From: a virus
Direction: 5' to 3' (one strand)
Length of the DNA: 62,441 nt
Virus record (IMG/VR): IMGVR_UViG_3300036853_000205
Span: 1 to 62,441 of that record
The position numbers and the translations under genes were made by a program. The notes beneath the pieces are model-generated. The model was given only the letters and a program-made list of their open reading frames with translations. It ran no database searches and was not told the origin of the DNA. Shown here piece by piece: positions 2,765-38,262 of this stretch. Each line of letters starts with the position of its first letter. The stretch's first letter is position 1.

Positions 2765-4485
2765 GACACGCCTTCGCCTTCGATCTCGTCGTTGGGGTCC
2801 TCGTACGCCGAGCGGCGCGGCTTGCCTGTGACCATTGCCCGCGAAAGGGCGGTGACGAGGGCGGCCACTCCGTCGATCTTGTCGACGGACCGTGCCCGGT
2901 CGGGTTTGACGTTGCCCGCCGGGTCCATCGCCACTGAGATGTTGTCGATCATCCAGCGCATGACCGGGTTGGCGCCGTGCCGTACCAACGGCTTGGCGGC
3001 GGTGCCTTGCAGCAACAGTCGGCTGAGTTGCTTCATGGGCGGGGACAGCGATGCGTATCCCTGCCGCACGGTGACCATCGGGGCGCCGTCGCTCTGCAAA
3101 TCGGTGACGAGTTGGGTGGCGTTCCACGGGTCGTAGGCCAGCTCGACCACTTTGAACGTGGTCAGGTCCTTGTTGATCTGTGCGCGCACATGGGCGTAGT
3201 CGGTGACCTCACCCGGGGTGAGCCGCAGGTAGCCGCGTTTCACCCAGCTCGTGGCGGCCCCGGCGGTGCGGTCGTCCAGCTTGCGCAGGTTCATCTCCGG
3301 CGTCCAGAAGCGCCACAGTGCGTCGTATCCGGCTGCGTCGTCGGGGAACAGCCAACACAGGGCGGTCAGGTCTGATGTAGACGCGAGGTCGAGCCCGCCG
3401 AACGCGTGCCGCCGCTTCAGCCGCGACTCGTCCACGAGACTCGCGTTGCGGTCCCAGACGGGCAGCTCGAAGTACTTGGTTTCCTGGCGGGTGCGCACGC
3501 CCAGGTGCAGGCGAAGGAACCGAGCCAGGTTCACCGGATTCTGTTGCGCCTTGGAGGCTTCGACCTTCAGGAAGGCCCGGGTGGGGCTGATGCCGTAACC
3601 GGGGTTGGCTTTCTTCCACGTCGACTCCAGGAACGGGTCATCGAGCGGGTCGGCTGCGAACACCACCCCGTACACACTGGGCTGCTTGATGCCGCCACGC
3701 GCCAGCCGCTCGATGTAGTCCCGTTTGTGGGCGTAGACGCTCTCCGGGCGACCATCGTCGGCGGTGGTGATGGTGATGATCAGTGGCTGAGACCTGGCTC
3801 CGGTGCCGGATTCAACCGCATCTACAACGGCGGATGTCTTATGGATGTGTAGCTCGTCAATGCCCGCGGCGTGAATGTTCGCGCCGTGCAACAGGTCGCC
3901 GAGGCTGGCAGCGACAGCGAAGTAGCTGCCGCTGGACTCCTGCACAATGCGCGACTGCAAGGGGCGGATGCCCGCCTGCTTCAGTTGCGGCGAGGACTGC
4001 GCGAGCTGCTTGGCGGGGTCGAAGCAGTGCCGGGCCTGGTCTTTGCTTCCCGCGACGGCCAGCACTTGCGCGCCGGCCTCGTCGTCTGCGAACGCCAGCA
4101 CGAGCAGCAATCCACTGATCAGAGTGGTCTTGCCCGCCTTGCGGGGCACGTCGATGTACACGGAGCGCACGATCCGCACGTAGACGCCGTCATCGTCGGG
4201 CGCCACCCACCCGAAAACCGGTGCGAGGATGTAGGCGACCTGCCAGGCGTCGGGCTTGAGGGGCCTGCCTGCCCACTTGCCCTGCGTGTGGCGCAGGCAC
4301 TCCAAACCAGCGATGACCTTGTCGACCCGGGATGCGTCAAAAACGGCACGGGGGTACCGGTTCGGCTCGGGCGTGCGTACGGCGGGCACGCACCAGTCGG
4401 GCACGACGTAGCCGCGCGACTCCAGATACCAATTGACCTCGGGAGACAGATCAGCCCGTGTGCGAGAACGGGTTCGTGTTGGCAT
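2761..4485 (-). CDS. terL: Terminase large subunit (TerL)
   Basis: This 574-residue protein is the ATP-driven DNA packaging motor and headful/cos nuclease, of the Terminase_1 family. The Walker A motif is VPRKAGKT at residues 113-120 and a Walker B-like segment is AAGIDELHIHK at about 205-215. A C-terminal RNase H-fold nuclease is indicated by FGGLDLASTSDLTAL, VELAYDPWNATQL and the final DKIDGVAALVTAL acidic motif. Length is normal for the family. The start lies 35 bases inside terS, so the two are translationally coupled. Confidence 0.95.
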   Translation of the reverse strand: MPTRTRSRTRADLSPEVNWYLESRGYVVPDWCVPAVRTPEPNRYPRAVFDASRVDKVIAGLECLRHTQGKWAGRPLKPDAWQVAYILAPVFGWVAPDDDGVYVRIVRSVYIDVPRKAGKTTLISGLLLVLAFADDEAGAQVLAVAGSKDQARHCFDPAKQLAQSSPQLKQAGIRPLQSRIVQESSGSYFAVAASLGDLLHGANIHAAGIDELHIHKTSAVVDAVESGTGARSQPLIITITTADDGRPESVYAHKRDYIERLARGGIKQPSVYGVVFAADPLDDPFLESTWKKANPGYGISPTRAFLKVEASKAQQNPVNLARFLRLHLGVRTRQETKYFELPVWDRNASLVDESRLKRRHAFGGLDLASTSDLTALCWLFPDDAAGYDALWRFWTPEMNLRKLDDRTAGAATSWVKRGYLRLTPGEVTDYAHVRAQINKDLTTFKVVELAYDPWNATQLVTDLQSDGAPMVTVRQGYASLSPPMKQLSRLLLQGTAAKPLVRHGANPVMRWMIDNISVAMDPAGNVKPDRARSVDKIDGVAALVTALSRAMVTGKPRRSAYEDPNDEIEGEGVS

Positions 4486-4906
4486 CGGAACGGCCCTCCG
4501 CCACGATTCGGGTCCGCCCTGACGGCGTCAACCCGAACTCCTGCGCGAAGCCGCGCACCGTGTGGGCGGCGTCGCGCTGGATTTGGAGTGCGGGATTGCG
4601 AACCATGTTGCCGTGCATTCCCCGCACCAACACCGAGGTCTTGGCGAGGATTGCGCTTGCCTTCCGGTGCGCCACCACGGCTTCGCAGTAGCAGCGAAGG
4701 GTGTCACGGTCGGCGGACGTGGCGATCTTCATCACGAGCAGTTCGTTGAGTGTGTAGTCCCAGATTTCGCGGACGTCGTCGGCCATGTCGGGCGGCGGCT
4801 CGGGAGGAAAGTCGCGGGTGATCGGCTCACGCAGATTGACGTGGCTCGGTCGGCTCTCACCCCGCAGCAGCCGCAGTTTCAGGGGCACTGGCGGTGGTCC
4901 GGACAT
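4451..4906 (-). CDS. terS: Terminase small subunit, P27-like
   Basis: This 151-residue protein should bind the packaging start site and recruit TerL. It has a Pro-rich N-terminus (FPPEPPPDMADDVREIWDYTLNELL), then a helical block (DRDTLRCYCEAVVAHRKASAIL and RDAAHTVRGFAQEFGLTPSGRTRI), as in P27-like small terminases. The start is well supported by an AAGGAGG eight bases before ATG 4906. The upstream TET gene runs 50 bases past this start, so terS begins inside the modification cassette. Confidence 0.88.
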   Translation of the reverse strand: MSGPPPVPLKLRLLRGESRPSHVNLREPITRDFPPEPPPDMADDVREIWDYTLNELLVMKIATSADRDTLRCYCEAVVAHRKASAILAKTSVLVRGMHGNMVRNPALQIQRDAAHTVRGFAQEFGLTPSGRTRIVAEGRSDANTNPFSHTG

Positions 4907-5810
4907 CGGTCAAACCTCCTTGCCCCTCGCGGAGCCTCACAGCCCGTTCGTATTCCTCGTCGGGCGACCCGCACTGGGCGATTTTCGTTCGGAAGTAGCT
5001 GACGACGCTGATGCGTTCCGCGCCGCAGCTCTCACAGGGGGCGCGCACCCGCTCTCCGCAACCGCAGACGATGGTGGTGTTTCCGTGCCAGTCGTGGGCA
5101 TCCATCAGCAACAGGTCACCGTCGTGCATGTCCACGGCCACCCGATAGGCGGGAAACACCAGTTGTCCGCCGGTGTAGGGGCCGCGCCGCAGGCAGGCAA
5201 TGGTGGAGAACCCGGCGTCGAGATCGCCCCTGTCGGTGTGGACCCCCGTCGGGTAGGTGTTGTTGACGGTGACCGTGGAAAACGGGGTACCCGGCACGAT
5301 CCACGCCGCATCACTCACGGCGGCCTGCGCGGCCTGGTTGGCGTAGCGGTCGGGGACGTGCTCGGCCAGGTGCCCGGCCACAGCCCGCAGCAACGGGTGG
5401 AGCTGCTGCCAGTAAGGCAGATTGCGCGCGGTCCACGACGTCTGGCGACAGTAGCGCTGCTGTCCTAACGCATCCACCGCACCGACCACCATCGACGGGG
5501 TTTCGGCCGCATAGGAGCGGCCACGCCCCGTCGGGTCGAGACGCGGCGTTCCGCTGGCGGCGCCACGATTTTTGGTGACCATGCCGCGCAACGAGTGCAG
5601 CACGTCATAGGTGACAGGGTCGGCGACCTGCGCGGCGAGCGCACCCGGCAAGTACACGCACAGGGGGCGCCCGTCGGGTTTGATGAGGCGCGCCGGGCCG
5701 GTCAGCAACACGTCGAAGTCCGCCGCGCCGAGCACCTTACCGGCGAGGCTTTCGCGGATGGCGGAGTCAGCGACCCGGCTGCGTAGCCGAAGTTCGGTGT
5801 GAACCGTCAT
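4857..5810 (-). CDS. TET/JBP-family 2-oxoglutarate Fe(II) dioxygenase
   Basis: This 317-residue protein is predicted to oxidise the 5-methyl group of a pyrimidine in DNA. The double-stranded beta-helix core shows the iron triad H191-x-D193 (YPTGVHTDRGD) and H242 (HDWHGNT). A 2-oxoglutarate-binding arginine lies in RISVVSYFR (R274), and GPYTGGQLVFP and MHDGDLLLMDAHD are typical TET/JBP elements. An insert at 249-262 carries CGCGERVRAPCESC (CxC and CxxC), a likely extra zinc site. Characterised phage TETs act on 5mC made by a co-encoded C5-methyltransferase; one is present here at 22513-23205. The start at ATG 5810 overlaps the kinase stop by four bases; longer forms add only Arg/Pro shadow sequence. 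The C-terminus overlaps terS. Confidence 0.88.
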   Translation of the reverse strand: MTVHTELRLRSRVADSAIRESLAGKVLGAADFDVLLTGPARLIKPDGRPLCVYLPGALAAQVADPVTYDVLHSLRGMVTKNRGAASGTPRLDPTGRGRSYAAETPSMVVGAVDALGQQRYCRQTSWTARNLPYWQQLHPLLRAVAGHLAEHVPDRYANQAAQAAVSDAAWIVPGTPFSTVTVNNTYPTGVHTDRGDLDAGFSTIACLRRGPYTGGQLVFPAYRVAVDMHDGDLLLMDAHDWHGNTTIVCGCGERVRAPCESCGAERISVVSYFRTKIAQCGSPDEEYERAVRLREGQGGLTDVRTTASAPETAAAAG

Positions 5811-6367
5811 TGCAGTACCCGCAGCGGAAGCCGTGCCAGCGCCGGAAGCAGCTCCGTCAACCGCGCGACGTTGGCGGCGGGGTGGGCGGTGCCGTCGAGC
5901 TGGACCAGGCGGTGGCGGCCTACGGCGTGCTCGGCGAGCCTGGCCGCCTTGGTGGCGCGGCCCGTCCGCCACGACACCGACTGGGCGGAACCCCGGGAGG
6001 CGGCACGCCGGTCCAACTCATCGTCAGGCACGGTCAGATAGACCGCAGTGACTGTGTAGCCCGCGTTGACGCCCGCGTCGAGAAAGCCACTGTGGGCCAA
6101 CCGGTCACCTTCACCGAGCACCAACGCGGACGGCTGACCGGCAAGAAACGACTTGGCCAGGGGGGAGACGTTGAGGCCGAGGGCATCAGTGCCGGAGAAC
6201 GCGGCCCGGCGCTTGCCCAGTTCGATCCCGACGACATCGGCGCTGCGCGTGAGGAGGTCGTGGGCGAACGGCTTGGCCATCGGGTGGCGCCCACAGCCAC
6301 CGGTCAGTTCAGCCATGAGCGTCGACTTTCCGGCGGCGGGCGGCCCGAAGACGTAGACCAGGTTCAC
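5807..6367 (-). CDS. P-loop kinase of the DNA-modification cassette
   Basis: This 186-residue P-loop NTPase starts with MNLVYVFGPPAAGKST (Walker A, residues 8-16). It has hydrophobic core strands SALVLGEGDRL and TVTAVYLTVPDDELDRR, and an arginine-rich lid RRAASRGSAQSVSWRTGR. This small-kinase architecture matches the kinases that phosphorylate 5-hydroxymethyl bases in hypermodified phage DNA. Between a TET enzyme and a transferase-like protein, the expected substrate is 5-hydroxymethylcytosine in DNA. A nucleotide-level kinase cannot be excluded. Both ends overlap neighbours by four bases. Confidence 0.75.
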   Translation of the reverse strand: MNLVYVFGPPAAGKSTLMAELTGGCGRHPMAKPFAHDLLTRSADVVGIELGKRRAAFSGTDALGLNVSPLAKSFLAGQPSALVLGEGDRLAHSGFLDAGVNAGYTVTAVYLTVPDDELDRRAASRGSAQSVSWRTGRATKAARLAEHAVGRHRLVQLDGTAHPAANVARLTELLPALARLPLRVLQ

Positions 6368-7482
6368 GCCGCGACGTCTCTGCCGTCGATGATCGCCTGG
6401 CGGACGTGGGCGTCGGCCAGCACGTCAACGACCAGATGCACCCGATCCACGCCGGAACGGTTATCCACGGCGTGCGGCTTGCGGGCGTCGAGATACCACA
6501 TCGACCAGGCGGGCAGGTGCGCGTTGTACCGCTCACCCCGCAGATTCCACGCGGACATGGTGATGTCGGGATGGGTGACCAACGGGATGTGGAACCGCAC
6601 AATTTGCCGGTCACGGGTGCCTGCGGCGCGATCGGTGATGTCGGTGTGGCGCGAGAGGCTGCCACCCTTGCCGCCGCGACCCGCCATGCGTAGCAGGCGC
6701 ACCCGCTCCAGTTGCCCCCACCACTCCACACCGCGCACCAGCTCCACCGTCGCCGGGCACTTCGCGGCGAGCACGGTCCAGGCGCATCGGGTGTACTGCA
6801 CGGCCTCAGGGTGCGCCGTCCACCACGCCTTCGACATCTCGGCGGGTTTGATGCCCCAGGCGGGGTCGGCGGGGTTGAAGCCCCGCAGGCTTACCGCACC
6901 CCAGGAGCCGTCGGAATAGTACGGGTAGTCGTCGGTCCAACCACGGATATTCGTGGCCTCGGCAACGATCGCGGCGCGCTGCGTCGCGGTGACCGCCAGG
7001 GGCACGCGGACAAGGGTGGCGGAGTCAGCGGCGGGGTAACTGTGCCCGGAGCCAGCCCGACCCCAGCAGTTGACGATCTCTGATGCCGCCGACACGCGCA
7101 CTGCCGCGATCTCGCGGTTTTGCAGCCGCAACTGCCGGGTGATGTGGGTGTCTTCGGCATAGGCGAAAACGTAGTCGAAGGCCGCCAACGAGGGCAGCGT
7201 CACGCTCGGCAGGCACGCCAGGTGGGTGATGACGCGGGCACCGTCGCCGAGAACGTAGGCGCGGCCGGAGAAGTCCAGCCGAGTCGAGCTGCGGGTCAGC
7301 CGCCGCGACACCGCTGCCGCCCCTTGGCCCCACCAGTGCCACGTCCCGTGGGCCATGTGGTTGTCGATCTCGGCGGCAGTCGGTACGGCGAAGGCGCCGG
7401 CGGCGAAGTTCTTCGCGTAGGCCCCCAGGAACCGTGCGGCTTCGCGGCCGGTCGTCGGGGTCCTCAGGTCGACGGCGGTCAT
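6364..7482 (-). CDS. Two-domain protein with C-terminal Asp/Asn-hydroxylase-like dioxygenase
   Basis: This 372-residue protein has a C-terminal cupin-like oxygenase domain (about 255-360). It includes LSRHTDITD (H279-x-D281), VRFHIPLVTHPD, SMWYLDARKPHAVDN (H337) and DRVHLVVD (R347). This is the pattern of aspartyl/asparaginyl beta-hydroxylase-like 2-oxoglutarate enzymes, different from the TET gene nearby. The N-terminal 230 residues (FDYVFAYAED, QLRLQNREIAAVRV, SEIVNCWGR) are not assigned; a GNAT-like fold is a weak guess. Within this cassette a plausible role is tailoring an aminoacyl or alkyl group on the modified base. It is joined to both neighbours by four-base overlaps. Confidence 0.7.
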   Translation of the reverse strand: MTAVDLRTPTTGREAARFLGAYAKNFAAGAFAVPTAAEIDNHMAHGTWHWWGQGAAAVSRRLTRSSTRLDFSGRAYVLGDGARVITHLACLPSVTLPSLAAFDYVFAYAEDTHITRQLRLQNREIAAVRVSAASEIVNCWGRAGSGHSYPAADSATLVRVPLAVTATQRAAIVAEATNIRGWTDDYPYYSDGSWGAVSLRGFNPADPAWGIKPAEMSKAWWTAHPEAVQYTRCAWTVLAAKCPATVELVRGVEWWGQLERVRLLRMAGRGGKGGSLSRHTDITDRAAGTRDRQIVRFHIPLVTHPDITMSAWNLRGERYNAHLPAWSMWYLDARKPHAVDNRSGVDRVHLVVDVLADAHVRQAIIDGRDVAA

Positions 7483-8387
7483 GCGGCCCCCTCCATCACG
7501 GCGAGCTGTGGCGTCCGCACGATCCCGGTCTCGCGGTAGCAGCGCCCGAGTTTTTTGTCCGCGCCCGGAGGTACGTCACGCCACGGCGCGGGGACCGCCG
7601 AGCGGAACGCCTCGCGCAGCACAAGCTTGTCCATGAGTAGGGCCAGGCCCTCGATCTCTTCACGGATCATCGCCAGGTGCTTGCCGGGGTAGTACCGGCC
7701 CTTGCGCATGACGTTGAAATCGCAGATGACCGTCTCGAAGTCCCACCAGGACAGGGCCACCCCGTTGTCAGCGAGCATCGCTCGGCACTCGACGGCAGTG
7801 GCGTTGAGCCAATCCACGCTGGGCTGATCGTTGCCGTACAGACGTTCCAGCGACTCGCGGGGCCCGCTGGACTCCCACAGGAACGCGTGCGGAGTCTCCA
7901 CCGGCAGGCCGATGACCTTGGCCGTGAACTCAGCCCATTCGAACGCGGTCAGCCGCCCGACGCCCCAGACACGACGCAGGTAGGGCATCAGCGTCAGAAA
8001 AGCGTCAGCGGGGTCGGCGTCGGCGGGCACCGCTTCCCGCAGCCACAGCAACTGCCGCTGCCCGCCGAGCAGGCTCACGTACGAGTCGAGGTGCTGAAGA
8101 ACTTTGCCGCCGCGCAGGTTGCGGCGTTCACCCGAGCAGGGCAGCCGAGCCACGGCGGCACGGTCGACGTGTGGCCAGGCCACAGGTTCTGGGCAGCCGG
8201 CCAGCACGGTCATCGCGGAGCCGAGGTCGTCGAAGGCGTTGTAGAGCTTGACCGCCCAGAGCAGCCGTTCGGTGTCCCACCCGGCGACGGTGCGCAGCTC
8301 GGCGAGCACGGCCGCCCACGGTTCGATGTCGGCGGCGGCGACTTCGTAGCGGGCGAACGTCACCAGGTCGGCCAGCACAACATCCAT
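7479..8387 (-). CDS. Helical DNA-modification protein, amino-acid:DNA-transferase-like
   Basis: This 302-residue, mostly helical protein begins MDVVLADLVTFARYEV at ATG 8387, coupled to the ParB-like stop as TGATG. Notable segments are LLWAVKLYNAFDDLGSA, NLRGGKVLQHLDSY, YLRRVWGVGRLTAFEWAEFTAKV, and ETVICDFNVMRKGRYYPGKH near the end. These resemble the helical (HhH/glycosylase-like) alpha-glutamyl/putrescinyl-thymine pyrophosphorylase and hydroxymethyl-base kinase-associated families found with TET/JBP genes in phages. I infer a transferase that replaces an activated hydroxymethyl group with an amino acid or amine. Assignment is by pattern and context only. Confidence 0.5.
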   Translation of the reverse strand: MDVVLADLVTFARYEVAAADIEPWAAVLAELRTVAGWDTERLLWAVKLYNAFDDLGSAMTVLAGCPEPVAWPHVDRAAVARLPCSGERRNLRGGKVLQHLDSYVSLLGGQRQLLWLREAVPADADPADAFLTLMPYLRRVWGVGRLTAFEWAEFTAKVIGLPVETPHAFLWESSGPRESLERLYGNDQPSVDWLNATAVECRAMLADNGVALSWWDFETVICDFNVMRKGRYYPGKHLAMIREEIEGLALLMDKLVLREAFRSAVPAPWRDVPPGADKKLGRCYRETGIVRTPQLAVMEGAA

Positions 8388-9235
8388 CAGGCGGCCACGT
8401 CCGCCGTCCATCCGGCGTACTTGGCCAGGTCGGCGGCGGCCGGGTCGTGTGGTGCGGCGTGCAGCACCGCACCCATCGTGCGCAGCCCGCGCAGCATTAC
8501 GTCGGATGCGCGCAGGTCGCCGTCACCCAGGGCGGTGCGGGCGGCGGCCACCAGGGCCACGGCTTCAGCGCGGTCGTCCTCGGAGTACACGAGGATCATT
8601 TCGGTGAAGCCGCCGCTTGCCGGGCCGATGCGCGGCTCGTAGGCGGCGATGCGGTCGGTACGCGCGGCGAGCTGTTCGGGGGTTTCGGCGTAGGCGGCGT
8701 CCGTCGCGGGCACGGCCACGGCCTGCTCCGGCTCGGGTAGCTCGGCGGCGGCCAGCAGGTCTTCCAGCTCTGACGGGGTCCACCCGGCCAGCTCCGCCAG
8801 GTCGAAGTCTTCGCCAGCGAGTGAGGTCAGCACGTCGGCCAGACCAGCGTCATCCCAGCCGCCCAGTTCGGAGTGCTTGTTGTCGGCGAGTAGGTACGCA
8901 TCGGCCTCAGCGTCGGATCGGCTGGCCCAGCCACGAACTACCGGCACCAGCCACCGTCCGGTCGCGTCGAGCTGCACACCGTCGGGTGGGGTCTGGCCCG
9001 CGTCGCGCATCAGCGCCAGCGTTTCGGCCCGGCCGTGACCCACGACCAGGCGGCCGGTGCGCTCGTCTCGCAGTACGGGGGCGGCGAAACCGAAGCGGTC
9101 CATGGAGGAGCGCAGCAGATCGAGCCGGTGTTTCTTCGGGTTGCGGGTGGCCGGGACGATCTCATCCAGCGGCATATAGATGATGTTGCGCGCGGGTGCC
9201 TGCTTCATATTGATGCCTATCGCTGATGGCTTCAT
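8387..9235 (-). CDS. ParB-like nuclease-domain protein of the modification cassette
   Basis: This 282-residue protein starts with a ParB/Srx-fold domain (IIYMPLDEIVPATRNPKKH, LLRSSMDRFGFAAPVLRDERTGRLVVGHGRAETLALM, DAYLLADNKHSELGGWDDAGLADVL). An acidic linker and a C-terminal domain follow, with MILVYSEDDRAEAVALVAAART. Such proteins commonly accompany phage DNA methylases and base-modification genes, where they may recognise or handle DNA. A start at the internal ATG 9208 is also possible; neither start has a strong ribosome site. It is the first gene of the cassette after a non-coding hairpin region. Confidence 0.78.
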   Translation of the reverse strand: MKPSAIGINMKQAPARNIIYMPLDEIVPATRNPKKHRLDLLRSSMDRFGFAAPVLRDERTGRLVVGHGRAETLALMRDAGQTPPDGVQLDATGRWLVPVVRGWASRSDAEADAYLLADNKHSELGGWDDAGLADVLTSLAGEDFDLAELAGWTPSELEDLLAAAELPEPEQAVAVPATDAAYAETPEQLAARTDRIAAYEPRIGPASGGFTEMILVYSEDDRAEAVALVAAARTALGDGDLRASDVMLRGLRTMGAVLHAAPHDPAAADLAKYAGWTADVAA

Positions 9236-9388: not shown

Positions 9389-9802
9389 CTATGCGCGCGG
9401 CTTGTGCCAGCCGCCAGGCTGGAGACGCGCGGTCGAGCTGGAGTGACAGCGACGGCACAGGCCGCGCCCGTGGGCGGGGTCGTCGCTGTCGAGCCCGGCC
9501 GCGAGCAGGGCGCGCTTGTCTATGGGCCAGTGATCTGCGTCAGTGCTGGGCGCGGGGCACGGACCCTTACCGTGCCAGGCGTGGTCGTGCAGATCGCATT
9601 GGCAGTACGGGTGCTTCTTCAGCACGCCGCGCCGGAAGCGCCAACGGTGGCTCGGGCCGTAGACCACATCTTGACGCTCGCGGCGGAATCTCGCGCTGAC
9701 GCGTCGCGCGTGGGAGACGTGCTCGTCGCAGCGCCCTCCGCCGCCATAAACCAGCGTGGGACAACCGAGAAAGGAGCAGGGCGTGGGCGGTCGTAGCGGC
9801 AT
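9389..9802 (-). CDS. HNH endonuclease
   Basis: This 137-residue protein has an N-terminal CSFLGCPTLV...RCDEH zinc knuckle, CQCDLH, the HNH core (DADHWPIDKRALLAAG and GLCRRCHSSSTA) and a Gly/Trp tail. Small HNH proteins near terminase genes stimulate or carry out cos cleavage with TerL in several phages. Here the base-modification cassette separates it from terS. ATG 9802 (MPLRPPTP) with a GGGGGA upstream is preferred to the start seven codons earlier. Confidence 0.85.
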   Translation of the reverse strand: MPLRPPTPCSFLGCPTLVYGGGGRCDEHVSHARRVSARFRRERQDVVYGPSHRWRFRRGVLKKHPYCQCDLHDHAWHGKGPCPAPSTDADHWPIDKRALLAAGLDSDDPAHGRGLCRRCHSSSTARLQPGGWHKPRA

Positions 9803-9888
9803 CGTTGGCGTCCCCCGCCCCAACGCCCTGCCCTCAGGTGATGCGCGGGGTCAAGCGCCACGCGGCGGTCGCTCCGGGGCGCCCCGCG

Positions 9889-10224
9889 TCACGATCCGAC
9901 CTTCGTTGTCACCGGCGCGCCGTCCTCCCAAACGAACTCGCCGTGGGCGCCGACGGGGCGATGCTGCCCGCACGTTGTGCAGTAGGTGGCGCCGTAGAAG
10001 CCGGGGTTGCGGGCGTAGGTCTCGGCGAGTGCCTGGCTCATGGTGGTGACCGCGCCGCAGGTCAGGTGCCTGTAGCTGCGCCGGACGGGCCGAACAAATC
10101 CCTGCGCGCGTTCCTGCTCGGATAGCACCAGGTAGGCGGCGGCCTGCGGAACACGTGGACCGTCAACCGGGTCTTCACCGTGGGTCAGGTCAGGGTCTTC
10201 GGGGTCAGACGTGATACGACCCAT
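9889..10224 (-). CDS. Conserved actinophage protein with CxxC motif
   Basis: This protein of about 111 residues begins MGRITSDPEDPDLTHGEDP. Its C-terminal half, with SYRHLTCG, AETYARNPGFYGATYCTTCGQHRPVG and GEFVWEDG, looks like a small zinc-binding fold found repeatedly in actinophages. Two cysteines in CTTC and one in LTCG could bind metal. No function is known. It lies two genes upstream of the modification cassette. Confidence 0.75.
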   Translation of the reverse strand: MGRITSDPEDPDLTHGEDPVDGPRVPQAAAYLVLSEQERAQGFVRPVRRSYRHLTCGAVTTMSQALAETYARNPGFYGATYCTTCGQHRPVGAHGEFVWEDGAPVTTKVGS

Positions 10225-10308
10225 CGAGGCCACCTTTCGCTGGGTACAAACGGGGCAAAAGGCAGACTGCGGTGATGATGGACATATTGGGTGATAGCTG
10301 AGTGAATG

Positions 10309-11918: not shown

Positions 11919-12211
11919 CGTAGAGCCTCGTTGAGCCCAACCAGCCGCACCAGCCGGAGCATGTCTTCGCCGCTGGGCCGCTCCAGGCTGCGCAGGGTGG
12001 CTGAGCGGGACGGCGACCACGCAACCGCCTGCCAGGCGTGGGTGAGTTTGTCAACGAACACCCCAAGTTCGTCGTCTTGCCAGGTCCACCGAGCGAGGTC
12101 GGGGTCTTTCTCGGGCGGACCCAGACGCTCGACCAGGACCGGCAGCCATTGGTCGGTCTGAGCGGGTGCGAAAGTCGAGGACATCGTGGCTCCTTCGGGG
12201 TTGTCGGTCAT
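11915..12211 (-). CDS. Small protein downstream of the replication fusion
   Basis: This 98-residue protein (MTDNPEGATMSSTFAPAQTDQWLPVLVERLG) starts in an ATGA overlap with the polymerase stop. WTWQDDELGVFVDKLTHAWQAVAWSPSRSATLRSLE is well-formed but unassigned. A four-base overlap also joins it to the following Zn-finger gene, so the three form a translational unit. Confidence 0.7.
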   Translation of the reverse strand: MTDNPEGATMSSTFAPAQTDQWLPVLVERLGPPEKDPDLARWTWQDDELGVFVDKLTHAWQAVAWSPSRSATLRSLERPSGEDMLRLVRLVGLNEALR

Positions 12212-15200
12212 GCCGAGTCGGCCCAGGCGAACGCGGGCGCGCTGGGTTCGGCTTCGATGCTCACGCCGAACAGTTCGGTCTTCATGCATCGCACCAGTTC
12301 GGCGGTCGCCACCTCGGCGTCGGCCGCAGGCACGAACACGTCCAGTTCGTCATGCACGGGCAGTAGCACGCAGGCACCCCAACGGGTCTCGCGCCACCGA
12401 ACCAGGGCATCGACTAGCAGCTCCCTTGCGGTCCCCTGGATGCAGAAGTTCGGGCCCTTGTGGGGGAACTCGCGGGGTAGGTGGATGACGCGTCCGGCGT
12501 AGGTGGCGAACTGGGTCTGGCCGCGCTGAACCGCTTCCCGGATCGACTGGGACCAGGCCGTCAGTTGCGGCGCAAGCGCGTCCAGCGCATCCACCACCCG
12601 CTGCATCTCAGCGTGCGACACGCCCAACTGCGCGGCCAGGGCGGGCACCCCACCGCCGTAGATCCGCCCGAACACACCGCGCTTGACCCGGTAGCGCTGG
12701 GCCTTGTTGGCGTCCGGCCCGTACACCATGCGGGCGATCTCCCAGTGCAGGTCGCGTCCGTCGAGCAGGAATTGCAGCAGGTTGCGGTCCTGGGACAGGG
12801 CGGCGGCCACCCGGATTTCTACGCTGGAGAAGTCCGCCCCGATCATGAGCATTTCCGGGTCCGCGGTCAGGCACGCCCGCATTCCGCCTTCGCGGGGCAG
12901 TTGCTGGAGGTTGGGCCGGACGCAGGACATGCGGCCGGTGTCAGTGCCGAGCGTGTAGACCGTGGGTCGGGCACGCCCGTCGCCGCGTTCGCACAGTTGC
13001 CGGTACGGGTCCAGGAACAGCCCAAGAGCGGTGTCGGCGTGCCGGTAGTCGAGCACCGCCCCCACGAGGACGCCGAGCGGCCCTTCAGCGGCCCGTAGCG
13101 GCTCCAGAACGCCCGCAGCCACTGAGGGGCGCCCCGTCTTCGTTGTCGGCAACGTCGCGCCGAGCTGGGTGGCTGCCTGGCCCACCTGCTGGTCGGAACC
13201 GGGGTTGTCGATCCCGAACGTGCGCACCCGGACGGCGGCGTCGGCCCGGCCCGCGATGTGCAGCTCGCTCAGCCGGGCGATGTGCTCGGCGTCGAGCCGA
13301 ACGCCTTCATGCGCTACTCGGGCAGTCATGCGCTGCGCCAGCCGCTCCCGCCAGTACACCTTGGGGGCTGGCTGGGGCAGGACTTCGGCGAGGGCAGCGG
13401 TGTCGAGCACGTCCGACGCCGCGTAGCGCAGCATCGTCGCCGAGTGGGTGTCGACCTGTGCCCAGCCGGACCGCTCAACCGGGGTGTCGGCCTTGGTCTT
13501 TTCGAGCCAACGGCCCGCCTTGAACAGCGCTGCCCGACTGGCGTCGGCAGCCGGAGCGACCGCGCGCACGCCGAGCACGGCCGCCGCCAACTTCTTCAGA
13601 CCGGGATCGGAGCCGGTGCTGGCGGGGTCGGCGAGCTTGGCGGGGATGACGGTGTCGCGCATCCGCAGCCATGCCGCGTCGGCGTCGATCAGTCCCGCGT
13701 GGGCCAGCGGCACCAGGTCGGCGGTGGCCGAGTGCGCGTGCAACGTCGGCGCCTCGTCCAGCAGGGAGCTGATCAGCGCGGCCTGCTCGATGGGGTCGAA
13801 CACCACGGCGGCTGTGGCGTCGCCGAGCTGCACTGACCGCAGAGCGTAATCACCGTGGCCCACCGGGTAGCCCGTGGTCTCCACGTCCACGGTCAGCGCA
13901 CCCGAGCGCTCCACGGCACCCCGGACCACGGCTGCGGCCTGCTCCAGACTCAGCGCCATGATCGTGCCGTCGCGGTCGACCACGGCGGGCAGCGCCACCG
14001 TCGCGCCAGCCGCCGCAAGGATCGACGCCGAGCGTGCCTCAGCCTTGAGCTGCGCGCGGGCCTCGGTTTTGGTGATCTTCGATGTGCTGGCACGTAGCGC
14101 CACGTCGGCGAGGGTGGTCTGTGACGGGGTGACCCGTGACGGGACCTGTTCCCCTTTATCTGTATTTATATAGTGTGTGTTATTTGTATGTTGTTGATGA
14201 TTGTTGTCTAAACTATTCAAACTAGTCACTGAACAAGAAGAAACAGGGTCTGACCTGGTGTTATCGTCCGTGACGGGCGTGGTCGAAACCAGTCGCTCAA
14301 CGCGTCCCACTCCAGTCACCGATGCGTCAGACGTTTCGACCTCCGGACTCGTTCGTCCTAGGAAGGCGGCCGGGGTGGGTGTCGTCGGCATGGACCCTTC
14401 GGTCCAACCCAGGATCGAGAGCGGTCTGACCTTTCCGTTTCGCGTGTGCTGCGCCGGAAAACCCATCTCCGTCAGGGTCCGACCGAAGGAAGTCACTGAT
14501 GGTATGACCGTTTTCCGGTAGATGGGATTGTCCTGATGCCACTGCGCGAACGCGTTGTAAAGGGTGCGGGCGGCGGTGCCCGGCTCGGTCGGGATGGTGC
14601 GGTTTTCGACCCACTCTCGGACCGGGTTCTGGTCCTCCGCGAGCGTCTGCGCCAGGCCGCGCACAGCCGCCGGGGCCACTGCGTTCGACGCTGAGTCCCG
14701 GTCGGCCAGATAGCCCGCCGTCTCCCGCATCAGGGCGGCCAGGATGCCTGGTGCCTCCTCGGCCAACGCAACGCCGAGCAGCGCGAGCCGGGCTGGTCGA
14801 ACGTCACTCTCCGTAGCGTTGCAGGGGATCAGGCGCATCCGGGCGCGTAGGGCGGGGTCGGTCAGGTGGGGCTCGTCGTTCGTCGTCATGACCAGGGTGT
14901 GACTCGGCGGGAACGTCACCGAGTTGGCGCGCATCGGGCGCCCGGTCAGCGACCCTCCGCCGGTGAGCTGCTTCAGGCGTTCGGTGGCGTCGTGGCCGCG
15001 CCGGGGCCCCTCGTCGATGAACGAGAACCGGCGCCCTTTCAGGTCCCAGATAATCTCCGGGTGGCTGGTGTCCTGCGCGCTGAGCAGTCTCGGGCTGGCG
15101 GCGTGCGCATAGGAGCCCAGCACCTCAACCAGCATCTCGATCAGCGAGGTCTTGCCCGAGCGCTCCGTGCCGTAGAGCACCGGCAGGGCTGCGTCCGCGT

Positions 15201-16842
15201 GGCCTGTGAGGCCGATGGCCAGCACCCGCAGCGCCCACGCGCGCACCTCGGGGTCGGGAAGCACCGCGGCCACGAACGCATCCCATCGTGGCGTCGCGCA
15301 GTTCGGGTCCGGGGCGCACAGGGCAGTACGGAGGTGCGGGGTGCCCGGGTCGACCCACCGTGCCAGGGTCGGCACGTCGCCACTCGCCCGCAGATCCCAT
15401 GGAGCTCCCCCGGCCCAAAGAATCTCCGGGTTGGCGTCGAGTGTTGCGCTGCGCAGGGCGGCCGGATGGTCAGAGCTGACGATGGCGCGCAGCTTGCGGG
15501 CGACCTTGCTCGCGCCCGCCGACGACATGAACTGTGCCCGCCGCACGGCCCGCCAGTGCGCTTCTGTCCGGTCGCCCAGCTCCTTCGGTACCGGTGTCTC
15601 CCCGATCGGCATCAACTCCGCCAGCACCGCGATTGCCCACTCGGACAGGTCGTCGGCGTGCTCCCGCCACACGTCCCGGCCGCGCACGATCCACAGCTTG
15701 GCGTCGCTGGCGAACCGCAGCGCCGGATACATCCGGTAGGCGACAGCCTTGGCCAGGCCCTGATCGCTGGAGTCCAGCGCCGGATCGAACGGCTCCCCGC
15801 CCAGCACCGCATACACTGACCACGGAGGCTCTGCCGGAGGTGCTTCGTCACCCGGCGGAGCCTCCCCCTGCCCGGCGATGGCCTCGTGCTCGTGCTGGTG
15901 AGCCTGCTCCGCCGTGAACACGTGGAACGGCTGGACCGCCCCGTCGTCCAGACCCTGTTGCACCCAGAGCTGGTCATCGGCATCGGGGCAGCCCCACACC
16001 TCACCGATGGCCTCTTCCAGCCGCTTGCGGGCCACCCCTTCATCGAGGTATCCGCCGCCGACATACCCGCCCAGGGTCAGCGCCGCGCGCAGCAGCACCG
16101 TTCGGAAGCCGATCCCGCCGTCGCTGGTCCACGTCGACACCTCGGCGAGCTTGGCGGAGATGGCCTTCTCGGCAGCCGGCGCGGACTGCGGCTCGCGGCA
16201 GGCGACGAACGACTGCCACCAGTCAGGCCCGCCGGCCGAGCGCATACCCGTCCCCGCCGCACGGACCTCCCCGATGCGCGCCGCGAGCGCTGACCCGCTG
16301 GCGTCTTGCCCTGTGCGCCAGGCGTAGTCGCCGAATCCGCCGGGGTCGGGTACCCGCTGCCACTGGTAGGCGACCGGTGCCCGCGTCACAGCCGACGCCC
16401 GCACGGTCGGCGCGATGAAGGCGAACCCACGGCCGCTGCCGTCCGGCAGGCCGCCCTTGACGTCGATGCCGGGCCAGAGGTTGTCGCGGCTGCCCACGCC
16501 GAGCGACGCGATGAACAGGTGCCAGCCGCCGGACGGCGTGGCCGCACAGGCGTACACCGTGGGCATCAGCCCTTCCAGCGCACCGAGGTCAGCGCCGTTG
16601 CGCGGGTCGATGTCGATCAGATCCAGACCGCAGCCCATCACCGCGCACAGCGCGAGTCCCGGCACCCACAGGTCGACGACGCCCGGGTCAGGCTCGGTGC
16701 GTTCCCAGTGCTTCGGCGGCCGGAATCCGGTCTTCGCGTCCGGGTCGGGGTGCGCCAGGAACAGCGGAACGCCCGCAGCGACCAGGGTCCGGGCCACGTC
16801 CAGGTCGGCGCGCTGCTGTTCTGTCAGGTCAGGATTAGTCAT
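12208..16842 (-). CDS. Primase-polymerase / helicase / DNA polymerase I fusion
   Basis: This single 1,544-residue protein joins three replication activities. Residues 1 to about 230 are a Prim-Pol domain (GLDLIDIDPRNG acidic motif, ATPSGGWHLF, DVKGGLPDGSG). About 500-760 is a D5/SF3-type helicase with Walker A YGTERSGKTS (about 555), RRFSFIDEGP and HTLVMTTNDEPHL. About 830-960 is a low-complexity linker rich in Asn, Thr and Gln. From about 975 there is a DEDD 3'-5' exonuclease domain (LTVDVETTGYP) and then a family A polymerase (IGADFSSVEIR near 1335, a KRGVFGRIYGGG O-helix, HDELDVF near 1495). No stop interrupts the joints. ATG 16842 overlaps the upstream gene by eight bases; longer starts add shadow sequence. 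Normally primase-helicase and Pol A are separate genes. Confidence 0.93.
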   Translation of the reverse strand: MTNPDLTEQQRADLDVARTLVAAGVPLFLAHPDPDAKTGFRPPKHWERTEPDPGVVDLWVPGLALCAVMGCGLDLIDIDPRNGADLGALEGLMPTVYACAATPSGGWHLFIASLGVGSRDNLWPGIDVKGGLPDGSGRGFAFIAPTVRASAVTRAPVAYQWQRVPDPGGFGDYAWRTGQDASGSALAARIGEVRAAGTGMRSAGGPDWWQSFVACREPQSAPAAEKAISAKLAEVSTWTSDGGIGFRTVLLRAALTLGGYVGGGYLDEGVARKRLEEAIGEVWGCPDADDQLWVQQGLDDGAVQPFHVFTAEQAHQHEHEAIAGQGEAPPGDEAPPAEPPWSVYAVLGGEPFDPALDSSDQGLAKAVAYRMYPALRFASDAKLWIVRGRDVWREHADDLSEWAIAVLAELMPIGETPVPKELGDRTEAHWRAVRRAQFMSSAGASKVARKLRAIVSSDHPAALRSATLDANPEILWAGGAPWDLRASGDVPTLARWVDPGTPHLRTALCAPDPNCATPRWDAFVAAVLPDPEVRAWALRVLAIGLTGHADAALPVLYGTERSGKTSLIEMLVEVLGSYAHAASPRLLSAQDTSHPEIIWDLKGRRFSFIDEGPRRGHDATERLKQLTGGGSLTGRPMRANSVTFPPSHTLVMTTNDEPHLTDPALRARMRLIPCNATESDVRPARLALLGVALAEEAPGILAALMRETAGYLADRDSASNAVAPAAVRGLAQTLAEDQNPVREWVENRTIPTEPGTAARTLYNAFAQWHQDNPIYRKTVIPSVTSFGRTLTEMGFPAQHTRNGKVRPLSILGWTEGSMPTTPTPAAFLGRTSPEVETSDASVTGVGRVERLVSTTPVTDDNTRSDPVSSCSVTSLNSLDNNHQQHTNNTHYINTDKGEQVPSRVTPSQTTLADVALRASTSKITKTEARAQLKAEARSASILAAAGATVALPAVVDRDGTIMALSLEQAAAVVRGAVERSGALTVDVETTGYPVGHGDYALRSVQLGDATAAVVFDPIEQAALISSLLDEAPTLHAHSATADLVPLAHAGLIDADAAWLRMRDTVIPAKLADPASTGSDPGLKKLAAAVLGVRAVAPAADASRAALFKAGRWLEKTKADTPVERSGWAQVDTHSATMLRYAASDVLDTAALAEVLPQPAPKVYWRERLAQRMTARVAHEGVRLDAEHIARLSELHIAGRADAAVRVRTFGIDNPGSDQQVGQAATQLGATLPTTKTGRPSVAAGVLEPLRAAEGPLGVLVGAVLDYRHADTALGLFLDPYRQLCERGDGRARPTVYTLGTDTGRMSCVRPNLQQLPREGGMRACLTADPEMLMIGADFSSVEIRVAAALSQDRNLLQFLLDGRDLHWEIARMVYGPDANKAQRYRVKRGVFGRIYGGGVPALAAQLGVSHAEMQRVVDALDALAPQLTAWSQSIREAVQRGQTQFATYAGRVIHLPREFPHKGPNFCIQGTARELLVDALVRWRETRWGACVLLPVHDELDVFVPAADAEVATAELVRCMKTELFGVSIEAEPSAPAFAWADSA
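14157..14250. other. AT-rich island inside the replication fusion gene
   Basis: This stretch is strongly AT-rich (tatttatata, ttatttgtat, several att/aat runs) inside otherwise GC-rich coding sequence. In the gene frame it encodes the Asn/Gln/Thr linker between helicase and polymerase domains and includes a TTA leucine codon at 14209-14211. It could be a fusion scar, a DNA-unwinding element or an internal control point. Confidence 0.7.
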
Positions 16843-17047
16843 GCTGCACGCACCGTTCGCCATTTCCGCCAAGGTGCTCGATCTGAAACGACCGGACCTG
16901 ATCAAGCGGTATCCAGGTGCGCGGCACCCCTCGGCCGATCACCAGGCAGCGACTCGGTGCGTCAATCTTCCAGCCGCCGCCCTCGGCACTAACGGGGTAG
17001 TACATGTGCGTGTGGTCGTGATAGAGGATTACCAGTTGCAGCCTCAT
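16835..17047 (-). CDS. Small protein upstream of the replication fusion
   Basis: This 70-residue protein (MRLQLVILYHDHTHMYYPVSAEGG) has strands separated by turns and ends GERCVQHD. It starts in an ATGA overlap with the resolvase stop and overlaps the replication fusion by eight bases. VRSFQIEHLG near the end suggests a small beta fold. Function unknown. Confidence 0.7.
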   Translation of the reverse strand: MRLQLVILYHDHTHMYYPVSAEGGGWKIDAPSRCLVIGRGVPRTWIPLDQVRSFQIEHLGGNGERCVQHD

Positions 17048-22166: not shown

Positions 22167-22516
22167 GACTGCCCCCGCCCGGCGACGGCGCGAAGCTCCC
22201 AGTACGTGGCCTGCTTCGCGTACTGCACATAGATGTGAGGTACCTCGGCCTTGAGCCGGGTGGTGTCGAGTCGCCACGACGTCTTCGCGGCCAGCCGCAG
22301 CGGCGCATCGAGGGCCGTTGCGGTGAAGTCGACCTTGTGTGCGCCGGGGGCGGCTTCGCTCAGCGCGAGCTTGAGGGCGGCGGTGATCTCCTCCAGGCGG
22401 CCCTTCGCCGCGTCGGCAGCGGGCTTGGCGATTGCGTACGCTTCCGCGAGCTGTTCCAGCCGGCTGCCTGGCTCTGCCACGACGGCGGCGTGCTCGGGGG
22501 TCAACGGGTCGGTCAT
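22163..22516 (-). CDS. Small helical protein of the recombination operon
   Basis: This 117-residue protein has a long helix (EQLAEAYAIAKPAADAAKGRLEEITAALKLAL). A beta segment KVDFTATALDAPLRLAAKTSWRLDTTRLK and YVQYAKQATYWELRAV follow. Similar short proteins sit with nuclease genes in other actinophages. It overlaps the methyltransferase stop by four bases. Function unknown. Confidence 0.68.
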   Translation of the reverse strand: MTDPLTPEHAAVVAEPGSRLEQLAEAYAIAKPAADAAKGRLEEITAALKLALSEAAPGAHKVDFTATALDAPLRLAAKTSWRLDTTRLKAEVPHIYVQYAKQATYWELRAVAGRGQS

Positions 22517-23205
22517 AGTGTGACTCCGGTGGAAAGGTGCGCGGTGCCGAGCCAATGTGTGTAGGCGGGCGGAATGGCTTCAGTCAGTTCTGGTCGGGCG
22601 TCAGTCCAGTCGATGCCCATTGCCTGCTGCATCTCCGTCACGGAAGCCTTACCGCCGCCGTCCCCGTAGGCGGCGACGTACGGGCCCTCGCGCCAGACGC
22701 CGTGGCGCATTCCACGAACGAATCCCCGATGGGCGATGTGGTCGGGTTGTTGCACGGCCCACCCACCCAGCTCGAAGTTGCGGTGCCGCAGAACGCCGAG
22801 GCCGAACATTTCGCCGCACAGCCGCACGTCCTTACGGATCGGGGCCCCGCCGTTCGGCTGCTCGATCACGTAGGGCACGCCCGCCCGCACCAGCAGCCTG
22901 CGCAGCGGGGGCAGTAGTCGGGGGTGGAGCTGGCCGCGCGTCGCGCGGTTGGTGCCCTGGGTGAGCGCGCAGTCGGCCTGGCACGGCGGCGAGGCGTGAA
23001 CCAGCGCGTACCGCTTGACACCTCCCGACTTAATCAGGAGCGACAGCGCTGCCAACGCGTCGACTTGCAGCAGTGGGTACGGGTAGCGCGGCCGGTCGGC
23101 GATGTCGATGCCGGTCACGTCGAAGCCAGCGCGGGCGTACCCGACCGAGGCGCCCCCGGCGCAGCAGAACAAATCGAGCAGGCGCGGCCGGGTGGGTGGG
23201 GTCAC
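22513..23205 (-). CDS. DNA cytosine-C5 methyltransferase
   Basis: This 230-residue enzyme has motif I (LLDLFCCAGGASVGYARAGF), motif IV (HASPPCQAD, catalytic C75), motif VI as VIEQPNG, motif VIII as RHRNFEL, and a final EAIPPAYTHWLG (motif X-like). It is a compact form with a short target-recognition region (about 145-205), so it probably recognises a short site. It would supply 5mC to the TET enzyme at 4857-5810, although it lies 13 kb away in the early operon. Confidence 0.9.
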   Translation of the reverse strand: MTPPTRPRLLDLFCCAGGASVGYARAGFDVTGIDIADRPRYPYPLLQVDALAALSLLIKSGGVKRYALVHASPPCQADCALTQGTNRATRGQLHPRLLPPLRRLLVRAGVPYVIEQPNGGAPIRKDVRLCGEMFGLGVLRHRNFELGGWAVQQPDHIAHRGFVRGMRHGVWREGPYVAAYGDGGGKASVTEMQQAMGIDWTDARPELTEAIPPAYTHWLGTAHLSTGVTL

Positions 23206-28541: not shown

Positions 28542-29738
28542 ATGGTCGACAGCTTCGGTGCCACACTGCGAGCCTTACGTCAGCAGAACGAACTCAGCTT
28601 GGAAGCCCTCGCCGAGCGCACCACCTTCAGCGCGGGCTACCTCGGCAACATCGAGACGGGCGAACGCGCACCCACCCTGGGCGTAGCCGCAGCCTGTGAC
28701 GACGTGTTCGGCTGCGCCCCCTTGCTGGCAACCCTGCACAGCATCGAGCGAGGAGACCCCATGCTGCGACGGGCGTTACTCGGCGGTACTTTCGCCGCCA
28801 CATCCACTGCGCTGCTCGCCACCGTGGACGGCACCGCGGCATTGGCCGCCGTCCTGCAATCGAGCCTCCACGACGCGATCGAGGCGCCCACCGACTGGGA
28901 TGCCCTGGCCGCCAGCTTCGCCCGCCGTCACGTGCTGGCCCCGTCCCCCGCGTTCGGCGTCGAGCTGGCCGCACAGATCGCCGTTGCGCAACATCGCGTC
29001 ACCGCCGGGGATCGTGATGCTGCCCGGGGCGCCGCGCTGCTCGCGCTCACATACGGGCTGTGGATCGCCGATACCGGGCGGGTGCCCACCGCGCACGGCC
29101 TGTACGCCACCGCTGCTGCCCTCGCTGACCGCTCCGGCGACCCCGCTACCCGCGCCCTGGTCCGGGCCCGCGCCGCGAACCGGGGCATCTACGAGGGCTG
29201 GACCGCTGACCGGGCACAGGCCACCGCCGACGAAGCCCTCGCAATCTCCACCACCGGCACGGCCGCGCTGGAAGCGCACGCTGCCCGGGTACACCTACAC
29301 GCGCTGACCGGCAACCTGTCGGCGGGGCGGGCAGCCGTGGCACAGATGCGGGCGGCGGCTGACTCGCTGCCCGAAGCCGGCGGACCCACGGCGCATCAGC
29401 GCGTCGCCTCGTTCCACGCCTACCTGGAGTGCCGCGCGGGCAGCCTCACAGACGCCCAACGGGCCTTCGAGCAGGCCGAGCGGGATCTTCGGCAGGTGCC
29501 GCTGTGGCTGGCGGACGCCACGATCTACATGGGTCGAGCCCTGGTCGCGGCGGGTGACGTCACCGGCGGGGCACAACTCACCCTGGACGCCGTGCAGCAC
29601 CTCCCGTTCTCAACGCGCATCCTCGGTATCGGGGTACGTGACGTGCTCTACGCTGCCGGGCGTCGGCGCAGCGACGTCCTAGACGTGCTGCGCGGCTACG
29701 CCAGCCCCGGCCCGGCCCCTTGGGAGACCCTGACATGA
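28542..29738 (+). CDS. XRE-family regulator with TPR-like C-terminal domain
   Basis: This 398-residue protein has an N-terminal XRE helix-turn-helix (LRALRQQNELSLEALAERTTFSAGYLGNIETGERAPTLG, about residues 8-50). A long Ala-rich helical region follows with repeating TPR-like pairs (AAQIAVAQHRVTAGDRDAARGAALLALTYGLW, GLYATAAALADRSGDPATRALVRARAANRG, YLECRAGSLTDAQRAFEQAERDL). This architecture is typical of actinomycete chromosomes, not phage repressors, and suggests host origin. It could be a lysogenic conversion regulator or act as the phage immunity regulator. The next gene overlaps it by four bases. Confidence 0.85.
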   Translation: MVDSFGATLRALRQQNELSLEALAERTTFSAGYLGNIETGERAPTLGVAAACDDVFGCAPLLATLHSIERGDPMLRRALLGGTFAATSTALLATVDGTAALAAVLQSSLHDAIEAPTDWDALAASFARRHVLAPSPAFGVELAAQIAVAQHRVTAGDRDAARGAALLALTYGLWIADTGRVPTAHGLYATAAALADRSGDPATRALVRARAANRGIYEGWTADRAQATADEALAISTTGTAALEAHAARVHLHALTGNLSAGRAAVAQMRAAADSLPEAGGPTAHQRVASFHAYLECRAGSLTDAQRAFEQAERDLRQVPLWLADATIYMGRALVAAGDVTGGAQLTLDAVQHLPFSTRILGIGVRDVLYAAGRRRSDVLDVLRGYASPGPAPWETLT

Positions 29739-36777: not shown

Positions 36778-38262
36778 GTGACTGCCACCGACCTATACGT
36801 CAGGTACTCCGACCTAAAGGCCGAGAATCTAACGCCTGACGGTGAGGCGAAGAACATCGAGAACGCAGTTCAGTTGCTACGCGGGCGGGCCACACTGTAC
36901 GGCTGGCAGGTCGCTGAGGTGATCGTTGAAAACGACGTGTTGGGCGACGGGCGACTCAAGCCCGCGTCGGCGTACAAGCGGCGGGCCGTCATTTTGCCGA
37001 ACGGCGACGTGATTCAGCGTGTGATCCGGCCAGGTTTCACGCGGCTGGTGGACCGACTCAAGGCGGGCGTATCGCAGGCCGTGGTGGCGCTGGACCTTGA
37101 CCGGCTGGTGCGCGATCCGCGCGACCTGGAGGACTTCATTGACGTGTGCCGGGCGACCAACGCTAACGCCCGGTCGCTATCAGGCTCGTTGACCTTCACC
37201 GACGGCGGCACCGACGGGGAGATCACCATGGCGCGGATCATGGTGGCGGTAGCGAGCAAAGAGTCGGCGGACAAGGTGCGGCGACAGAAGGTGGCCCGCA
37301 AGCGCAAGGCGGAGGCGGGCGAATTCGGCGGCGGCCCGCGACCTTACGGGCGAGAGGCAGACGGCAGAACTCTGCGCGAACCCGAGGCCGAGGTGATCCG
37401 TGTGGGGTGCCGCCGGGTGCTTGCGGAGCCGCCCGTCAGCCTGCGCTCACAGGTCCGCTCCCTGAACGAGCAAGGCTTCCGCACCGTGGCTGGTCACCTG
37501 TTCAAGGCCCCGGACTTTCGGGAGATGCTGCTTCGGCCGTGGAACGCCGGTCTGCGCGTTCACGACAAGCAGATCATCGGGGAGGACCCAGCAGCAGCCA
37601 TCGTCAAGCGTGAGGTGTGGGAGGCGGTGGTGGACAAGCTGACTGCCCCCGGCCGCCGCAAGTGCCCCCCGGGTCCGGCACACAAGTACCTGGGCACCGG
37701 GTTGTTTCTGTGCTGGTGCGGCAGCACGGTCACGCCCCGGATCTCCAGCCGGAGGTCAAACCGGTACGGGTGCAAGCTGGGGGCGAACGGGGGCGCCGGG
37801 GGCGGGCACGCGGTGCGGGTCATGGCGGACGTAGACGCCTGGGTGGTCGACAACGTGCTTGCCCGCCTGGCCGAGCCGGACGCCGCCGAGCTGGTCGCGC
37901 CGCGCGCCGGTGCCACGATCGACGTAGCCGCGCTGCGCGCCGAGGTCAGGCAACTACGCGACCGCAAGGTTCGGCTGGTTCGGATGTTCGTCGAGGACGG
38001 GGACGAGGAAGCCCTGATGAAGGGCAAGCGGGATATCGACGCGAAGTTGAACACGAAAACGGAGCTGCTGCACGCGGCCACCGAGGTCTCACCACTGCGT
38101 GACCTAGTCGGCGCCGACGACGTGCGGGCCGTCTGGGAAACGATGACTCTCGGCGAGCGGCGAGCCGTGATCGCGCTCGTTTGCCGGGTCGAAATCTGGC
38201 CGCTGAACCACGGGGAGCGCCGGTTTGACCCGAGCGCGGTTCGGGTTCTCTGGAACGCCTGA
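36778..38262 (+). CDS. Large serine integrase
   Basis: This 494-residue site-specific recombinase would integrate the phage into the host chromosome. The N-terminal resolvase domain has the catalytic serine in LYVRYSD (S11), VVALDLDRLVRDPRDLEDFID and ITMARIMVAVASKESADKVRRQ. The recombinase domain has GGGPRPYGREADG and VRSLNEQGFRTVAG. A zinc ribbon lies around CWCGSTVTPR...YGCK, then a coiled coil (AALRAEVRQLRDRKVRLVRMF). The N-terminus has an insertion around VILPNGDVIQRV. GTG 36778 follows GGAGGGAACCCC. Confidence 0.95.
   Translation: MTATDLYVRYSDLKAENLTPDGEAKNIENAVQLLRGRATLYGWQVAEVIVENDVLGDGRLKPASAYKRRAVILPNGDVIQRVIRPGFTRLVDRLKAGVSQAVVALDLDRLVRDPRDLEDFIDVCRATNANARSLSGSLTFTDGGTDGEITMARIMVAVASKESADKVRRQKVARKRKAEAGEFGGGPRPYGREADGRTLREPEAEVIRVGCRRVLAEPPVSLRSQVRSLNEQGFRTVAGHLFKAPDFREMLLRPWNAGLRVHDKQIIGEDPAAAIVKREVWEAVVDKLTAPGRRKCPPGPAHKYLGTGLFLCWCGSTVTPRISSRRSNRYGCKLGANGGAGGGHAVRVMADVDAWVVDNVLARLAEPDAAELVAPRAGATIDVAALRAEVRQLRDRKVRLVRMFVEDGDEEALMKGKRDIDAKLNTKTELLHAATEVSPLRDLVGADDVRAVWETMTLGERRAVIALVCRVEIWPLNHGERRFDPSAVRVLWNA

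Follow-up and report, generated by a model that had tools for sequence, protein, structure and literature searches.

A gene of a soil phage, long enough for 302 amino acids, encodes a member of the amino acid:DNA transferase (ADDT) family, which, as judged from its sequence and its modelled fold, very likely transfers an amino group onto an activated pyrimidine in DNA. It is the second gene of a five-gene operon that also encodes a ParB-like protein, a 2OG/Fe(II) oxygenase related to proline hydroxylases, a P-loop kinase and a TET/JBP-type oxygenase (Table 1). Taken as a whole, a post-replicative base hypermodification pathway, in which the ADDT works on a thymine route and the 2OG oxygenase tailors its product, is a reasonably probable reading of these sequences and models. 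The transferase belongs to a clade in which the ADDT is paired near-strictly with such a 2OG oxygenase. Amino acid:DNA transferases are a small family, and their structures have been solved from very few phages. In what follows, the window is the whole stretch of DNA analysed, 62,441 nucleotides of the IMG/VR record IMGVR_UViG_3300036853_000205, and L with a number denotes a locus of a relative.

Table 1. Positions in the window of the operon genes, the conserved ADDT segment and the candidate methyltransferase.
Feature	Position	Strand	Basis
ParB-like protein, first operon gene	8387..9235	(-)	phrog_620 1.5e-30, phrog_498 4.8e-28
ADDT, gene under study, 302 aa, all-helical	7479..8387	(-)	PF18724 and PUGT fold
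Conserved segment CDFNVMRKGRYYPGKH, ADDT residues 222-237	7677..7724	(-)	alignment of relatives
2OG/Fe(II) oxygenase, Asp/Asn/Pro hydroxylase kind, 372 aa, proposed tailoring enzyme	6364..7482	(-)	PF05118 3e-6
P-loop nucleotide kinase (Ploopntkinase3), proposed hydroxymethyl-base DNA kinase	5807..6367	(-)	PF18751 4.6e-34
TET/JBP-type 2OG/Fe(II) oxygenase, 317 aa from ATG 5810	4857..5810	(-)	PF12851 6.7e-21
Small C5-methyltransferase-like protein, unlinked, only candidate 5mC source seen in the window	22513..23205	(-)	phrog_363 5.1e-31

The transferase gene and its family

A sequence-only reading of the window had placed here a divergent helical protein that may transfer an amino acid or amine to DNA. 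The frame it named is present and is conserved across relatives, with 46-65% identity in 19 other loci and 25-36% identity in 19 more of the aligned set. The likely start is the ATG at 8387, since it shares bases with the stop codon TGA of the preceding ParB-like gene (CTGATGG); an alternative in-frame ATG is possible at 8411. The length of the frame alone is no evidence, because in GC-rich DNA such as this, long frames often arise by chance: an antisense frame of 321 aa spans 7677-8642 across the same region. Since such frames occur here, the reality of the gene rests on conservation, not length.

The AlphaFold2 model of the protein is confident (pLDDT 96.2, pTM 0.92) and contains 18 helices and no strand, as had been expected of an all-helical protein. 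The segment that had been singled out as conserved, CDFNVMRKGRYYPGKH, proved in the alignment to be a conserved motif of the ADDT family: C222, D223, G230 and G235 are invariant in all 39 sequences, and Y232 and Y233 occur in at least 90% of them. Outside this segment, D20, P23, R88, R89, G175, P176 and E218 are likewise invariant. The motifs D-x-x-P, ERR, ETxxC and GxY, common to the characterised members of the family, are all found in the protein.

Assignment to the family comes from three sides. The protein matches the Pfam family PF18724 (amino acid:DNA transferase) with 43.3 bits (cut-off 26.2; E 4.7e-11). A search of the PDB with the single sequence gave no match, but a family profile built from 39 relatives matched 25qc at 8.1e-24 and 8z2m, the glycinyltransferase of phage PaMx11, at 1.3e-14. 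The fold closest to the model is that of 8z2n (PUGT), with Z 21.3 and an rmsd of 2.6 Å over 245 residues, and every other fold match has a Z of 10.8 or less. The suggestion of amino acid transfer to DNA is thus well supported as a family assignment. "Divergent helical protein" holds as to the helices, but a protein recognised by PF18724 is not an unassigned one. Membership of aGPT-Pplase clade 3 (PF18746) was rejected, the score of 16.3 bits lying below the cut-off of 25. Only two relatives of the ADDT were found in one-per-species bacterial genomes, which for that reason give no information on the host.

The operon and its other enzymes

From 9235 down to 4857 the genes follow one another in the order ParB-like, ADDT, 2OG oxygenase, kinase and TET. 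Each overlaps the next, by TGATG (ParB-like/ADDT), ATGA (ADDT/2OG oxygenase), GTGA (2OG oxygenase/kinase) and ATGA (kinase/TET), and therefore the five genes form one tightly packed, translationally coupled operon. That the ADDT lies in a modification cluster, as the earlier reading had it, is confirmed by the Pfam matches of its neighbours and by the neighbourhood scan.

In the 2OG oxygenase, the catalytic residues H279, D281, H337 and R347 are invariant in 17 sequences. Its model is closest in fold to two hydroxylases of proline, the 3-hydroxylase 1e5r (Z 16.8) and the L-proline cis-4-hydroxylase 4p7w (Z 16.5). Both have amino acids as substrates, and this agrees with an action on the amino acid moiety of a conjugate. 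The protein carries in addition a conserved N-terminal domain of about 150 aa, and no match in the fold search with the model covers these 150 residues.

The active site of the TET-type protein is intact (HxD, H and R), with H191, D193, H242 and R266 invariant. A PDB search with the single sequence gave no match, but the profile search found human TET2 at 3.2e-5. In TETs of the window type, the second His and the Arg of the active site flank a cysteine-rich insert (CxC...CxxC), which is absent in the type found in Mycobacterium phage LilMcDreamy. The kinase beside the ADDT belongs to PF18751, and a search of the window for an HMUDK-family kinase there gave no PF18748 match. A search for a thymidylate synthase (TS) homologue gave no PF00303 match in the window, the record of which may be incomplete; since no TS is seen there, the TET is left as the one visible enzyme that could supply the hydroxymethyl group.

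Clusters in relatives and the lineage of the transferase

How far does this arrangement hold among the relatives? In the ADDT tree, the transferase is followed by the proline-hydroxylase-like 2OG oxygenase and then by a PF18751-type kinase in 19 of the 20 loci of the clade that contains the window (clade I), with a TET-like gene nearby. The cluster is conserved across these 19 loci, and a ParB homologue adjoins it in 16 of them, the window included, the other three being contig ends. The ADDTs of clade II, in turn, mostly have a FAD-type oxidase near the transferase and kinase. When the tree is labelled by tailoring enzyme, 2OG-linked or FAD-linked, a single change is required, against a mean of 12.2 for shuffled labels (none of 500 shuffles as low), whereas five are needed for labels that distinguish TET from TS as the hydroxymethyl source. 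The lineage of the transferase therefore tracks the tailoring enzyme and not the hydroxymethyl source. The tree was built by a quick method, with SH-aLRT as the sole measure of support, and in it M6 gp51 and L062 stand on long branches.

The single exception in clade I is L003, which is without the 2OG oxygenase and has a TS homologue (PF00303) together with an HMUDK-type kinase and genes; its ADDT nests with those of the window, L001, L002 and L004 (SH-aLRT 96). Between its ADDT and kinase, in the slot occupied elsewhere by the 2OG or FAD enzyme, L003 has an ORF at 6843-7526 that looks by eye like a SAM-methyltransferase and has no Pfam match. Missing genes are weak evidence in such comparisons, because many of the contigs are fragments.

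The two groups also differ within the transferase itself. Four positions are fixed within each group and differ between clade I and the FAD-linked and M6 ADDTs (A25/Y, D53/Y, E150/K and H237/D), and because of these fixed differences an amino donor other than glycine is plausible for clade I.

Thymine or cytosine, and alternative readings

The earlier reading had supposed that the enzyme acts on cytosine rather than thymine derivatives, and this part is unsupported. Two observations stand against it: the grouping of L003, with its dUMP-type TS homologue and HMUDK-type kinase, and the absence of any C5-methyltransferase match in six complete phage genomes that carry such clusters, searched by PF00145, by phrog_363 and by homology to the window protein. 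Asn at TS position 177 selects dUMP over dCMP (PMC8670742). All six TS homologues found near ADDTs, that of L003 included, have Asn at this position, and L051 joins a TS of this type to an ADDT, a FAD-type oxidase and a kinase of the same PF18751 family as that of the window. The FAD-type oxidase of Kozie (L010) has as its best PDB match a flavin-dependent lyase (8z2o/8z79, 3.5e-4), which we take, from the accession series and the name, to be the PaMx11 enzyme. This relation of the oxidases of clade II, the sister clade, to a solved flavin-dependent lyase of the pathway also favours thymine. On these sequence comparisons the modified base is probably thymine, and cytosine is the less likely target.

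A cytosine pathway would start from 5mC made by the small C5-methyltransferase-like protein of the window; the TET would oxidise it to 5hmC, the kinase would phosphorylate this and the ADDT would attach the amino acid. The strong TET/JBP domain in the operon fits such a route, as do the phrog_363 methyltransferase in the window and a PF00145 methyltransferase on the contig of L004. In L026, moreover, a homologue of the window methyltransferase (9695-10306) lies about 600 bases downstream of the cluster kinase. The window TET is of the phrog_24024 kind and differs from that of LilMcDreamy (phrog_6059 kind), and phage TETs are reported in Burke 2021 (cited in PMC10273834) to be active on C5-cytosine in cytosine hypermodification. 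However, the window methyltransferase is unlinked to the operon, has no match in a PF00145 search and is of a type common in actinophages, with homologues in 306 phage records. In the six complete genomes neither PF00145 proteins nor homologues of it were found, a PF00145 match was obtained in just 4 of another 34 contigs, and the nearest relatives of the ADDT include a 5hmU pathway of the dUMP type. Because C5-methyltransferases are not consistently present in the relatives, the cytosine reading is lowered, and we consider it unlikely; that the operon yields an aminoacyl-cytosine via phosphorylated 5hmC, with subsequent oxidation by the 2OG enzyme, is quite unlikely.

Two further readings concern the transferase itself. 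The ADDT fold may have been kept for a nucleophile other than glycine or a simple alpha-amino acid, for instance a polyamine or a basic amino acid; the clade-specific D53 for Tyr, E150 for Lys, E22 for Asp and A25 for Tyr speak for it, acidic residues standing where the relatives have Tyr or Lys. Yet the partner oxygenase resembles amino-acid hydroxylases, and the core E87-R88-R89 and E218-T-x-x-C222 is common to the glycinyltransferase, so that such a nucleophile seems improbable. That the protein is a helical DNA-binding or base-flipping protein of the HhH glycosylase kind, devoid of transferase activity, is very improbable indeed. The folds next after 8z2n are those of the queuosine-salvage protein DUF2419 (Z 10.8) and of several HhH DNA glycosylases (Z 8-10), but according to the fold tool values of 8-10.8 are within the range seen for unrelated helical proteins, against 21.3 for the transferase, with which family and synteny also agree.

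Proposed pathway

For the preferred thymine route we infer the reactions below, which base and which amino acid take part, and where in the sequence the last step falls. The TET/JBP oxygenase would convert thymine in the phage DNA to 5hmU by hydroxylation of its 5-methyl group, and the PF18751 kinase would phosphorylate the new hydroxyl group. The ADDT, with its PUGT fold, would then swap the phosphate for the amine of an amino acid, which would produce an N-linked aminoacyl-thymine. Finally, the 2OG oxygenase would oxidise the attached amino acid, either by hydroxylation or by hydroxylation at the alpha-carbon with breakdown to 5-aminomethyl-U. In a glycine conjugate the latter would release glyoxylate together with 5-aminomethyl-U, by a route unlike that of the flavin enzyme; the flavin lyase of PaMx11 is likewise said to give 5-aminomethyl-U. 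Hydroxylation of the side chain of another amino acid and hydroxylation at the alpha-carbon are equally likely actions of the 2OG enzyme. The amino acid of the conjugate is its somewhat favoured substrate, and action on the free amino acid before transfer is unlikely. Phage DNA modified in this way would be camouflaged and would withstand restriction.

Comparison with known systems

PUGT, gp46 of Pseudomonas phage PaMx11, is a 5-phosphomethyl-dU (5-PmdU) glycinyltransferase (PDB 8z2m/8z2n). It shares with the window ADDT the whole fold and the D-x-D/E-P, ERR and ETxxC motifs at an identity of only 16-17%, and the two systems differ in the hydroxymethyl source and in the tailoring enzyme. At the positions where the FAD-linked and M6 enzymes have Y25, Y53, W146 and K150, the window ADDT has A, D, L (Q in its clade mates) and E.

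Thymidine hypermodification is established in phage M6 (PMC6449724), the gp51 of which also belongs to PF18724 (1.4e-46). Both M6 and the window have the PF18724 transferase, a kinase and tailoring enzymes in one cluster, but M6 carries a homologue of TS, a kinase of the HMUDK type, and PLP and radical-SAM genes where the window has a TET, a PF18751 kinase and a 2OG oxygenase. In Rhodococcus phage Tonitrus, a five-gene cluster has been reported as one of thymidine hypermodification, with its transferase annotated as aGPT-Pplase2 by the authors (PMC11955845), and thus the general idea of a cluster of ParB, TET, ADDT and kinase is already known. Tonitrus and the window share the ParB-like, TET/JBP, ADDT and PF18751-type kinase genes; the Tonitrus ADDT, however, belongs to clade II, and the fifth gene of the Tonitrus cluster encodes a protein of the Rossmann/FAD type instead of a 2OG oxygenase. 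The phage TET cytosine pathways reported in Burke 2021 are similar to the window in having a TET/JBP oxygenase in a hypermodification cluster, but no C5-methyltransferase is linked to the window cluster.

LilMcDreamy (L005) shares with the window, in its gp1-gp5, a clade-I ADDT (46% identity), the 2OG oxygenase (46%), the kinase and the ParB; its TET-like protein sits between ParB and ADDT, unlike the window TET. In the public records gp1-gp5 bear the names hypothetical protein, queuine tRNA-ribosyltransferase and terminase small subunit. The TET-like "queuine tRNA-ribosyltransferase" (855-1787) and the PF18751 kinase called "terminase small subunit" (3761-4333) both look misnamed.

With respect to the literature compared here, the 2OG-linked ADDT clade is new, and LilMcDreamy, the only isolated member found, is annotated with hypothetical proteins. 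The clade bears three marks: a TET/JBP enzyme replaces the nucleotide-level hydroxymethylase, the transferase has distinct fixed residues, and a proline-hydroxylase-like oxygenase replaces the flavin enzyme. Together these predict a DNA base decoration that, to our knowledge, is undescribed. The prediction is directly testable, because both the transferase and the oxygenase of this kind occur in LilMcDreamy, an isolated phage with a laboratory host, Mycobacterium smegmatis mc2 155. As a general rule, the pairing suggests that the tailoring chemistry can be predicted from the transferase lineage, while the routes to the hydroxymethyl group are interchangeable.

Other features of the window

Elsewhere in the window, 12208-16905 (minus strand) encodes a 1565-aa protein in which a D5-like helicase region (DUF5906) is joined to a 3'-5' exonuclease and to a DNA polymerase of family A. 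The frames at 36778-38262 and 28542-29738, both on the plus strand, resemble by eye a serine recombinase and a regulator of the XRE type, respectively, and thus suggest a temperate phage.
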